52,247 nt of DNA. Origin: Halorubrum ezzemoulense DSM 17463. Its GTDB lineage: Archaea; Halobacteriota; Halobacteria; Halobacteriales; Haloferacaceae. The translations under genes were made by a program, and so were the position numbers. The notes below the pieces were generated by a model. That model saw nothing but the letters and a program-made list of their open reading frames with translations. It searched no databases and had not been told where the DNA came from. Numbering within the stretch: position 1 is the stretch's first letter; each line of letters starts with the position of its first letter. Shown here piece by piece: positions 44,152 to 46,429 of this stretch. Location: the NCBI RefSeq assembly GCF_002114285.1, contig NZ_NEDJ01000018.1, forward strand, positions 1 through 52,247, in the 5' to 3' direction.

Positions 44152-44907
44152 ATGACCGTCGTCGTCCTGCTGGCGAATCCGCCCCGCGAGGGGCTCGTCG
44201 GAACCGCGATCGCCGAGTCGACGCCGCTGTCCGCCGCCGAGGCGGCTGACCTCTACGAGGCGCAATTCCGTGACGCCGTCCTCGCGGTCGACCGCTCCGG
44301 CGGCGAGCTCCTCGTCAACTATCCCGACGACGAGGACCTCCCCGCCGAGCACCGGACGGAGACGAGTCCGGAGGCGGAGCTGCGGACGCTCGTCGCGGAC
44401 ACCCTCGGCGGCACCGACGAGGTCCGCTTCGAGCGGCAGGTCGGTTCGTCGTTCGGCGCGCGCGCCGGCAACACCGTCACCCACCTTTTGCGCGAGGAGG
44501 GCGCCGACTCCGTCGCGGTCGTCACCCCGACCGCGCCGTTGCTCTCGCGGACGAGCGTCGACTCCGCGGCGATGAAGCTCCGGACGACCGAAGTGGTCCT
44601 CGGGCCCTCGACGGACGGCCGGGCGTACTACGCCGGGTTCACGGAACCGATCGACTTCGACGGCGCTTTCGAGGCGCCCGCGCTGCCGACGCTCGCGGAG
44701 CGCGGCCGCGACGCCGACCGCTCCGTGGACTTCGTCGAGCCGTCCCCCTCGCTGGAGACCGGGGCGGACCTCCTCGACGTGGTCCCGATGCTCCGGGCGC
44801 GGTTCGCCGCGGAGCGCGTCGTGCCGGACTACACGGCCGCGTTCGTCCACGAGAAGGGGTTGGACGTGGTCGTCGAGGACGGCGAGCAACGATTGGTTCG
44901 GGACTGA
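44152..44907 (+). CDS. DUF2064/GT-A-like protein
   Basis: 251 residues. The start TVVVLLANPPREGLVGTAIAESTPLSAAEAADLYEAQFRDAVLAV resembles the nucleotidyltransferase/glycosyltransferase-A-like DUF2064 family, in which a lead strand is followed by a loop that binds nucleotide sugar. Later blocks are ADSVAVVTPTAPLLSRTSVDSAAMKLRTTEVVLGPSTDGRAYYAGFTEPIDFDGAF, where SVAVVTPTAPLLS stands in place of the family's DxDxP loop and VVLGPSTDGRAYYAG matches its GPxxDGGYxxxG motif. No membrane segment. Function unknown; a sugar transferase role is a guess. Confidence 0.75.
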   Translation: MTVVVLLANPPREGLVGTAIAESTPLSAAEAADLYEAQFRDAVLAVDRSGGELLVNYPDDEDLPAEHRTETSPEAELRTLVADTLGGTDEVRFERQVGSSFGARAGNTVTHLLREEGADSVAVVTPTAPLLSRTSVDSAAMKLRTTEVVLGPSTDGRAYYAGFTEPIDFDGAFEAPALPTLAERGRDADRSVDFVEPSPSLETGADLLDVVPMLRARFAAERVVPDYTAAFVHEKGLDVVVEDGEQRLVRD

Positions 44908-44985
44908 GCGTCTCGTGCGCGGCGGCGGGGCCCGGTGCGTCGGATCCGACACCACTTAGTCGTCCGACGCCGAGCAGTCACGTGT

Positions 44986-45069
44986 GGTGGGATGGCAGAG
45001 TGGCCCATTGCGCCTGCCTTGAAAGCAGGTAGCCTCACGGCTTCCTGGGTTCGAATCCCAGTCCCACCG
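44986..45069 (+). tRNA. tRNA-Ser, anticodon UGA
   Basis: The fold is complete: acceptor GGTGGGA (44986-44992) pairs with TCCCACC (45062-45068), the anticodon stem CCTGC/GCAGG encloses the loop CTTGAAA with anticodon TGA, and a long variable arm (AGCC...GGCT) marks it as class II, followed by T stem CTGGG/CCCAG around TTCGAAT. The discriminator base is G at 45069, as in serine tRNAs, and no CCA is encoded. The tRNA reads UCA codons. Confidence 0.96.
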
Positions 45070-45114
45070 TAGGTGCGCGGCGCATCTCGCGCCGCGCGCG
45101 TCTCGTGCGGGATT
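45048..45114 (+). repeat. Direct repeat copy 1: tRNA-Ser 3' end plus flank
   Basis: 67 bp that begin inside the T stem of tRNA-Ser and run past its end. They are repeated at 45168-45234 with four mismatches, exactly 120 bp downstream. The flanking part contains a perfect inverted repeat, GCGCGGCGC (45075-45083) and GCGCCGCGC (45089-45097), which could act as a terminator hairpin for the tRNA. Confidence 0.9.
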
Positions 45115-45453
45115 CGAAGCCTGTGAGTCGCAGCGCCAGAGCGGAGGGAGGGTGACCGTCTCACATCGGTTCGAATCCCAGTCCCACCGTAGGCGCGCGG
45201 CGCAGCTCGCGCTGCGCGCGTTTCGTGCGGGATTGAATCAGTGAGCGACCGCGAAACAGAATTCAGTTACTCGTTTCTCTCGACAGCCGATTCGGATCGG
45301 TCTCTCGTCTCGCGCTTTCGACCGCCGGAACCGCAATCACATCGCTGCTGGCCTGAAACGCCCGGTAACACTCACGTCCGGTGACGCGTGGTACCACGTG
45401 CCGCATTATCTTTAACAGGTTTCCGGCACATGTTCGTGATAGGTGATACAAGC
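45070..45453. other. Gene-free stretch between tRNA-Ser and sod
   Basis: It holds the rest of the first direct repeat, the 53-bp spacer (with the short inverted ends TGTGAG at 45122-45127 and CTCACA at 45160-45165), the second repeat, and then about 170 bp of lower GC ending in the sod promoter. A TATA-like ATTATCTTTAAC lies at 45405-45416, and AGGTGAT at 45441-45447 may serve as a weak Shine-Dalgarno site. I see no integrase, tRNA or protein gene in it. Confidence 0.7.
45168..45234 (+). repeat. Direct repeat copy 2: orphan tRNA-Ser 3' end
   Basis: This copy has the same T loop and acceptor strand (GGTTCGAATCCCAG then TCCCACC), but the sequence before it (TCTCACATC) cannot form the T stem or the rest of a tRNA, so it is not functional. 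Its hairpin has changed to GCGCAGC-TCGC-GCTGCGC. A repeated tRNA 3' end is the usual mark left by an integrative element; the 53 bp between the copies show no gene. Confidence 0.88.
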
Positions 45454-46053
45454 ATGAGTTACGAACTCGATCCGCTGCCGTACGATTACGACGCGCTGGA
45501 ACCGCACATCTCCGAACAGGTGCTCGAATGGCACCATGACACCCACCACCAGGGGTACGTCAACGGCTGGAACTCCGCCGAGGAGACGCTCGAGGCCAAC
45601 CGCGAGGACCACGACTTCTCCTCGTCGGCCGGGGCCATCCGCGACGTGACCCACAACTCGTCGGGCCACATCCTCCACGACCTGTTCTGGCAGAACATGT
45701 CGCCGGAGGGCGGCGACGAGCCCGAAGGAGACCTCGCCGACCGTATCGAGGAGGACTTCGGCTCGTACGAGGCCTGGAAGGGCGAGTTCGAAGCCGCCGC
45801 GGGCAGCGCGAGCGGCTGGGCCCTGCTGGTGTACGACACGTTCTCGAATCAGCTTCGCAACGTCGTGGTCGACAACCACGACGAGGGCGCGGTCTGGGGC
45901 GGTCACCCGATCCTCGCGCTCGACGTCTGGGAGCACTCCTACTACCACGACTACGGCCCGGCTCGCGGCGAGTTCGTCGACAACTTCTTCGAGGTCGTCG
46001 ACTGGGACGAGCCGTCCACCCGCTACGAGCAGGCCGTCGAGCTGTTCGAGTAA
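45454..46053 (+). CDS. sod: Fe/Mn superoxide dismutase
   Basis: 199 residues. The metal ligands and nearby motifs are clear: LEWHHDTHHQGYVNGWN near residue 27, SGHILHDLFWQNMSP near residue 70, and ALDVWEHSYYHDYGPARGEFVDNFF near residue 155, which supplies Asp and His. The protein converts superoxide to oxygen and hydrogen peroxide; Mn is the usual metal in haloarchaea. I chose ATG 45454 because MSYELDPLPYDYDALEPHI is the family N-terminus. A stem-loop plus T-run follows the stop. Confidence 0.96.
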   Translation: MSYELDPLPYDYDALEPHISEQVLEWHHDTHHQGYVNGWNSAEETLEANREDHDFSSSAGAIRDVTHNSSGHILHDLFWQNMSPEGGDEPEGDLADRIEEDFGSYEAWKGEFEAAAGSASGWALLVYDTFSNQLRNVVVDNHDEGAVWGGHPILALDVWEHSYYHDYGPARGEFVDNFFEVVDWDEPSTRYEQAVELFE

Positions 46054-46097: not shown

Positions 46098-46182
46098 CGC
46101 AGCGTGTTGCCCGGTGAGCGACGGGTTCGCGTAGGCGGTGTGAGTCATGACTGGTCGCCGGCGAAGCGATGACGAACGCCTC

Positions 46183-46429
46183 CGAAGCCCCAGCCGCGCT
46201 CGACTCCCACAGCTTCGCCGCGCTCCGCGGTCGTCCGCCGTGCTCACTCCCTGCGGTGCTTGCGTCGCTGGGATTCGGCGAGCGCGGCTGCCCGTTTGAG
46301 CCCCGTCCCGCACGGCACCGCACCTCTCACCGCCCCAGCCTCGTCGGCCTCCCTCCAGTCGGCCGACTCCCTCGCACGCGCTCCTCGCGGCCGCCTCCGG
46401 CGGCCACTCGAAGGCGCGCGCCACCCCAC
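46183..46429. repeat. Probable dispersed intergenic repeat
   Basis: This GC-rich stretch fills most of the 434-bp gap between sod and the gene at 46488. It contains motifs such as CGCGCTCGACTCCCACAGC and a perfect GGCCGCC-TCC-GGCGGCC hairpin at 46389-46405. Translations in several frames are Arg/Pro/Ala-rich and not acidic, unlike real haloarchaeal proteins. I recall very similar segments many times between genes in Halorubrum genomes, often wrongly called as hypothetical proteins. It occurs once in this window, so copy number cannot be shown here. Confidence 0.5.

Follow-up and report, generated by a model that had tools for sequence, protein, structure and literature searches.

The DNA behind the tRNA-Ser(UGA) gene of Halorubrum ezzemoulense DSM 17463 holds members of an order-wide family of gene-less units of about 100 bp that stand immediately behind tRNA genes, either alone or as tandem arrays. 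Starting at the tRNA, a unit consists of a trailer hairpin (H), an inverted copy of the T arm, an inner hairpin and, farthest out, a direct copy of tRNA nucleotides 53-73, here called the tail. The explanation that we favour, to which we give a probability of roughly 0.45, is that these units carry no cargo, are made or moved through recombination at the T-loop/3'-end sequence, have in part been duplicated in tandem, and are in the course of being lost. This explanation starts from what was observed, namely the anatomy of the units, ends that are cognate to the adjoining tRNA, the limits of the copied block, a single orientation of the core, covariation in the stems, a spread throughout the order, and variable presence at an orthologous tRNA gene. 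Its main rival is a structured RNA of the tRNA trailer that is maintained by selection.

The tRNA-Ser(UGA) locus in the window and in the genus

Within the window, that is, the whole stretch of 52,247 nt that was analysed, the initial annotation had pointed to a 67-bp segment recurring 120 bp downstream with four mismatches, and to a hairpin behind the tRNA that was kept in both copies. Both observations hold. The direct repeat (45048-45114 and 45168-45234) is identical at 63 of 67 positions and is the sole pair of 67-mers in the window that matches at 54 or more of 67 positions at offsets of 30-1000, the best value in three shuffled windows, sampled at every fifth offset only, being at most 40/67. 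The part of the repeat that is linked to the tRNA is confined to nucleotides 53-73, which leaves a spacing of 99 bp between the two tails (Table 1), and the other 45 or so nucleotides of each copy are the trailer hairpin, which in this genome is duplicated along with the tail.

The 53 bp between the copies had been described as free of genes and viewed as what is left of an integrated element that was lost or reduced; the interval is not empty, being part of a hairpin. Positions 45109-45180, comprising the gap and the second T arm, fold into a structure (RNA fold -33.6 kcal/mol, z -2.85) in which the inverted T arm provides the 5' arm and the duplicated T arm the 3' arm, with a second stem, GTGAG/CTCAC, inside. 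A covariance model termed R1, built from 25 hairpins of which the window copy is itself one, scores this hairpin at 81.2 bits (E 8.6e-17). An Rfam search of positions 44800-45500 returned the tRNA family RF00005 and no other family at gathering score. Because a second H comes after the second tail, and after it a fragment resembling the start of a type B unit, the locus is best read as an array of a type A and a type B unit (the types are described below) from which most of the type B unit has been lost.

Table 1. Components of the array behind tRNA-Ser(UGA) and the gene that follows it; positions are those of the window.
Feature	Position	Strand	Basis
Intact tRNA-Ser(UGA), anchor of the array	44985..45070	+	ARAGORN; Rfam RF00005, 58.5 bits
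Tail 1, tRNA nt 53-73 (T loop, 3' T stem, 3' acceptor strand, discriminator)	45049..45069	+	Sequence; block limits from 138 copies
Trailer hairpin H, copy 1 (stem 45073-45083 / 45089-45099)	45070..45108	+	Fold
Inverted T arm GGGATTCGAAGCC, 5' outer arm of the hairpin	45109..45121	+	Fold, pairing with 45168-45179
Type A hairpin, 69 nt; core AGTCGCAGCG...GACCGTCT, stem GTGAG/CTCAC	45110..45178	+	Covariance model R1
Tail 2, exact copy (21/21) of tRNA nt 53-73; 3' outer arm of the hairpin	45169..45189	+	Sequence
Trailer hairpin H, copy 2	45190..45228	+	Direct repeat
Likely remnant of a type B unit, GGGATTGAATCAGTGAGCGACCGCG	45229..45253	+	By eye like type B unit starts at the Ser locus in L005, L006, L013 and L019
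Fe/Mn superoxide dismutase gene (sod), downstream; its start bounds the interval	45454..46053	+	Pfam PF00081, PF02777

The orthologous locus varies considerably within the genus. Among 49 Halorubrum genomes, the number of tail copies behind tRNA-Ser(UGA) is zero in 23, one in 22 and two in four, and the units present are of type A, enlarged type A, type B, or type A followed by type B; these 49 come from a set of 52, one locus (L020, in G044) having been dropped with its tRNA being Ser-GGA, and two genomes (G040 and G051) having no usable locus. The start of sod was located in 42 of the 49 loci. There, the interval between it and the tRNA tail measures 246-351 nt in loci that lack a copy (864 nt in L246), 339-467 nt with one copy and 480-542 nt with two, and 41 of the 42 values fall within 246-542 nt. 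On a sod tree of 40 rows the presence of the unit changes at least 12 times, a count that is only rough, as the tree, from which two rows were omitted, is weak, with 7 of its 37 inner branches starred. On visual inspection, the combination of H type with hairpin type differs between genomes, which speaks for recombination at T-arm sequences. Losses from an ancestral array of a type A and a type B unit would explain much of the pattern at this locus, and in several of the Ser loci the duplicated stretch includes H, for which local tandem duplication by itself would suffice.

Spread and anatomy of the units

When the 52 Halorubrum genomes were searched with the locus, the orthologous tRNA was recovered along with scattered matches, in many genomes, to the gap segment alone. 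A tRNA gene lies within 19 of 20 such stretches that were fetched, five of these being the Ser(UGA) locus and 14 involving tRNAs for Arg, Leu, Pro, Phe and Lys, and in all 14 of the non-Ser stretches the hairpin is followed by a copy of the cognate tRNA 3' end, imperfect in places. The twentieth stretch (L051) has a tRNA-Phe across its left edge, 2 kb upstream of the hairpin; what by eye is a transposase-like gene lies between the two. The exact core pattern was found in other genome records in 34 stretches carrying 35 cores, a set that includes MAGs and some Halorubrum genomes, and the taxa concerned are Haloferax, Halorubrum, Natronomonas, Natrinema, Natronococcus, Halosimplex, Halorientalis, Halobacterium, Halobaculum and others. 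All 35 cores share one orientation, and all lie 48-321 nt downstream of a tRNA gene except those of L059 and L069, which stand directly behind a readable tRNA 3' end without an ARAGORN call; the far tail is degraded in a few stretches (e.g. L057, L059 and L084). One unit, at tRNA-Arg(GCG), is common to Halorubrum and Natrinema.

Matches to R1 occur in all 51 of the 51 genomes of the genus that were searched (E 0.01), with 3-31 per genome, counts that include some matches to a separate long Halorubrum repeat, and, at E 1e-4, in 129 of the 146 genomes searched from the order. When genomes were drawn from the whole phylum, 51 of 294 gave a match, all of them from the same order, and none outside it among the genomes listed. 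The association with tRNA genes is close: of the 33 hits that reach 40 bits in three genomes, 31 are found on the strand of a tRNA gene and no more than 355 nt downstream of it. In the first of the two exceptions, a 5.2-kb element with an integrase gene separates the hairpin from the tRNA; the second is a unit with Arg-TCG ends (L123:6408-6475, in G000:C33) on a contig without a tRNA hit. The latter unit lies, by eye, between cobalamin-type genes and a transposase-like gene, and an intact Arg-TCG tRNA is found on contig C78.

The limits of the tail were taken from 138 copies found at 95 of 163 tRNA loci with 29 anticodons, the 163 loci being enriched for units in that some were fetched because they have copies. 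Identity to the tRNA climbs from 0.41 (nt 51) over 0.83 (nt 52) to 0.96 (nt 53), remains at 0.95-1.00 over nt 53-73, the only part to which the match threshold was applied, and drops to 0.67 at nt 74 and to 0.30-0.51 beyond. Included in the 138 copies are five full tandem tRNA-Asp copies, and Asp arrays enter the count once for each of the two tandem tRNAs. A match to a non-cognate tail was obtained in 2 of 3802 tests. In a survey with less selection, a cognate copy was present within 600 nt at 11 of 44 tRNAs of the source genome and at 15 of 37 tRNAs of G021. The former covered 44 of 56 tRNA matches, with a 12-gene tRNA cluster on C74 left out and some flanks cut by contig ends, the latter 37 of 45 tRNAs, and in both surveys two of the positives are a tandem tRNA-Asp pair with one array, where the nearest copy for the first gene is the second full tRNA. 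The cluster on C74 (G000:C74:4125-6980, L124) has 12 tRNA gene matches in less than 3 kb and is perhaps a virus- or plasmid-borne tRNA array.

The spacers that separate tail from tRNA have a median length of 102 nt (range 37-358). An inverted T arm is present at 8/10 or better in 118 of the 138 spacers, against 39 of 1380 shuffled spacers. With the five full tandem tRNA-Asp copies removed, 89 of 133 units have an inverted arm that matches their own tRNA at 9/10 or better, compared with a mean of 42.4 and a maximum of 53 for permuted tails. Tails and inverted arms are cognate to the adjoining tRNA, and are degraded in few units.

The paired structure is reflected in the 25-row alignment, where 93.8% of the cells are paired and 61 double changes are observed, against 19.6 in shuffled and at most 13 in slid alignments, with changes on both sides in 10 pairs; because the rows were found by the core pattern, the innermost stem is a biased test of this covariation, and the two outer stems are less so. 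Mismatches of the G-T and the A-C kind, counted in 83 of 92 hairpins, number 40 and 17 in nine outer-stem pairs and 4 and 7 in the second stem, with no consistent RNA-strand bias.

Simple patterns divide the inner hairpins of the 138 spacers into 60 of type A (GTCGCAGCG...CGACCGTCT), 24 of type C (GTCGCGCGC...GCACGTCT), 12 of type B (CAGAGAGCGACC...GACCGTG and relatives) and 42 others, among them the tandem tRNA-Asp copies, and an enlarged tip can bring the length of the hairpin to 121-122 nt. Hairpins of one type turn up behind different tRNAs and in several families, their arms nonetheless cognate to the adjoining tRNA, and this recurrence speaks against a plain local tandem duplication of flanks as the source of the units. 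A further form, type D, has been seen behind tRNAs at L289, L280, L291, L206 and L037; it has a spacer of about 60-80 nt, ends in the last 13-16 or so nucleotides of the tRNA only, and is sometimes tandem. By eye, some type D spacers contain an inverted acceptor end, and L042 holds an inverted version of the entire tail (nt 53-73).

Integrase elements and the origin of the units

The 5.2-kb element mentioned above is that of L121, with a tyrosine integrase. Among 30 integrase loci related to the L121 enzyme, identity to the tRNA starts at nt 53 in five, exactly over 21 nt in L256, L260 and L262 and with one mismatch in L257 and L258, where L256-L258 are one near-identical element family. The identity extends further in L259, L263 and L266 and amounts to 13-16 nt only in 14 loci; none was found in seven of the 30, matches having probably been missed because an exact 13-nt match to 44 tRNA 3' ends of two genomes was required, and L261 has 21-nt Phe tails that perhaps belong to its units. 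Taken together, the limits of the tails and of the integrase loci indicate that the block of the unit coincides with one integrase block size; the 13-nt tail in which the type D spacer ends is, for its part, like the 13-16-nt identities at the 14 loci.

A hairpin hit of more than 50 bits is present in five of the 30 integrase loci. The unit of L121 is found on the far side of the element's 21-nt att copy. The same integrase end is found in L257 and L258 (flank 60/60 and 59/60 identical), with no unit behind the att copy, which is followed by about 25 nt like the other end of the element and then by different sequence; the L121 unit thus looks host-side and not part of the element. The notion that the unit is the integrase element's own att arm is contradicted only by the L121 family with its two relatives without a unit. 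Integrase loci with a unit also include L286-L290, L261 and L265; in loci other than L121 the far tRNA was not seen, and the unit may belong there either to the element or to the host.

The initial annotation had suggested that relatives might carry an element at this very tRNA, and one does, but with a different break. In G020 (L127, G020:C50:1-11600) tRNA-Ser(UGA) is occupied by an element of 9.9 kb that encodes an Eco57I-like restriction-modification protein and a tyrosine integrase. At one end is a 5' tRNA fragment that stops just behind the anticodon arm, and at the other the full tRNA, behind which the hairpin unit is intact; the att site of this element differs from the block of the unit. 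Exchanges of this sort may be the source of the variant anticodon stems in other genomes. Short 5' fragments of tRNA-Ser(UGA) were also noted at G033:C1:104532 and G051:C77:40107.

A matching attP in viruses or plasmids, likewise envisaged at the outset, did not come to light: blastn against the phage and plasmid collections gave no match covering 80% of the hairpin, and a 41-nt partial match lies on a Natronorubrum plasmid. Eight core-pattern matches in viral contigs, which have no tRNA and no T arms at the core, were read as chance, and a viral source was set aside. Two further core-pattern scans, viral contigs among their targets, yielded no matches, no relatives of the L121 integrase were confirmed in viral contigs, and no full-length copy of the unit was found in the plasmids, phages and viral contigs searched.

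According to the favoured explanation, units would be laid down and removed through recombination at the T-loop/3'-end block that is used by some haloarchaeal tRNA-targeting tyrosine integrases. The units would be cargo-less integrative cassettes served in trans by a tyrosine recombinase and able to move between tRNAs, the inverted arm would become cognate, and local tandem duplication and deletion between tails would act on top of recombination. As a counterpoint, no test in this analysis ties a recombinase to the units. Moreover, since inner hairpin types are common to different tRNAs while the arms are cognate, a simple exchange of ready-made circles fails as an explanation. A double-stranded circle of about 100 bp is hard to bend, which counts against the cassette reading, as does the Arg(GCG) unit of Halorubrum and Natrinema, which looks like vertical inheritance and possibly selection.

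A selected trailer RNA is in our estimation a somewhat unlikely alternative, albeit the strongest one. The unit would be a host-beneficial structured RNA, serving 3' processing or acting as a decoy or small RNA, with the tail as the 3' strand of its hairpin and the copies generated by local duplication. The strong covariation (61 cells against 19.6 shuffled), the orientation of the core with the tRNA in 35/35 cases, the matches in 129 of 146 genomes of the order and the Arg(GCG) unit common to two genera would all be expected of such an RNA. It is harder to reconcile with the 23 of 49 genomes of the genus that have no tail copy at tRNA-Ser(UGA), with G-T and A-C mismatches that lack a consistent RNA-strand bias in the 83 of 92 hairpins counted, with a tail that runs past the pairing arm to nt 73, which is superfluous for a hairpin, and with the tRNA family being the only one at Rfam gathering level in 44800-45500.

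A more daring version of the favoured explanation, which strikes us as unlikely, is that the units are folded recombination sites comparable to those of integrons (attC). Here the inverted and the direct T arm, pairing in single-stranded DNA, would restore a double-stranded att site of the T-loop kind, and a haloarchaeal tyrosine recombinase might exchange this site with the T loop of a tRNA, giving rise to tRNA-anchored cassette arrays. If true, this would account for the inverted arm that matches the tRNA, the covariation of the inner stem, the variable length of the tip and the fixed orientation.

Two weaker rivals have been weighed. Target-site duplication, in which an enzyme cuts at nt 52/53 and 73/74, inserts a hairpin of about 80 nt and copies the 21-bp target in the manner of casposases and CRISPR integrases, would explain why tRNAs of 29 anticodons have a cognate 21-nt tail and why arrays alternate as tail-spacer-tail. 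It is nevertheless improbable, as the inverted arm is also cognate, something that a foreign insert would not supply, and the spacers vary widely in length (median 102, 37-358 nt). There is a slimmer chance still that replication template switching at stable mini-hairpins triplicated the tRNA 3' end, the middle tail being inverted, without dedicated machinery; the inverted whole tail of L042 and the inverted acceptor ends of some type D spacers, both seen by eye, would agree with it, and H and the core are both hairpins, but purely local events would not yield the same inner hairpin families at different tRNAs and in different families.

That the repeat represents attL and attR of one integrated element, lost or shrunk at the Ser locus, as had originally been proposed, is very improbable: the att-like extent of the block stands, running from the T loop to the mature 3' end as at five of the 30 integrase loci, but the lost gene-bearing element is rejected because of the orthologous loci (tail-copy units in 26 of 49 genomes, a tRNA-to-sod interval that leaves only 246-542 nt in 41 of 42 loci, and relatives in which such copies for the most part stand without an element, largely as the initial annotation had named for counter-evidence) and the order-wide spread, with cognate units behind many other tRNAs, hairpins of about 60-120 nt, and a gap that is structured sequence and not random residue.

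Known systems and a separate dispersed repeat

The attL and attR sites of elements with tRNA-targeting tyrosine integrases, such as the archaeal SNJ2-, pNOB8- and pTN3-like ones, likewise involve a duplication of the 3' part of the tRNA to the discriminator base, according to the relevant passages of PMC8371274. The units have the same block limits as some haloarchaeal integrase loci, whereas they lack an integrase and cargo, are about 100 bp long and tandem, contain a hairpin with an inverted T arm, and occur at many tRNAs. Partial tRNA genes without the 5' half are also left behind by mobile elements, and the fragments treated in the pertinent sections of PMC9897764 and, for Haloquadratum, of PMC3119063 flank kilobase elements, one case being in a CRISPR spacer. 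The unit differs in that its partner copy is only about 100 bp away, with structured sequence between.

With integron attC sites and cassettes the units share an imperfect palindrome, a tip of variable length, paired outer arms, a tandem array and a fixed orientation, but they have no cassette genes, to judge from a median spacer length of 102 nt, and their anchor is a tRNA gene, not attI. The R box of integron attC sites is GTTRRRY. The outer arm of the unit is GTTCRAN, with GTTCGAA or GTTCAAA in most aligned rows, and fails this motif because its fourth base is C. Archaeal integrons have been described from metagenome-assembled genomes of nine phyla (PMC9668308), in a report whose main text, as accessible, contains no word beginning with 'halobact' or 'haloarch'.

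No description of such units was found in the open-access literature searched. A structured unit attached to tRNA genes bears on the question of how these genes cope with being favourite integration sites, and such units can mislead the calling of att sites and provirus boundaries in haloarchaea. The gain and loss of arrays at a defined tRNA would moreover make a system in which either reading, a recombination unit without cargo or a new RNA of the tRNA trailer, could be tested.

MITEs and REP/REPIN-type repeats are short, dispersed, hairpin-forming and gene-less, and the units resemble them in these respects. They differ in that the inverted arms of the units match the adjoining tRNA and that nearly all strong hits (31 of 33 in three genomes) are at tRNA 3' ends. 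Terminal inverted repeats with a constant target duplication would be expected of a MITE; the units have inverted arms and a direct repeat of 21 bp, but the arms are cognate to the target.

Hits of R1 that are limited to model positions 14-55 and lie away from tRNAs were excluded from the units, as they belong to a different, long repeat of Halorubrum. This dispersed repeat is several hundred nucleotides long and G+C rich, has no tie to tRNAs, and includes a hairpin, GGAAGTCGCAGCCCGCGCAGCGAAGCGAGCAGGAACGTCTTCC, similar to the inner hairpin of type C in the tRNA units; it was encountered at L208-L213, L216-L219, L226 (G021, G042, G000:C11:45983-46025) and L122. In the window, CGAACGCCTCCGAAGCCCCAGCCGCG at 46140-46230, 3' of sod, appears by eye to be the end of a member of a dispersed Halorubrum repeat family.
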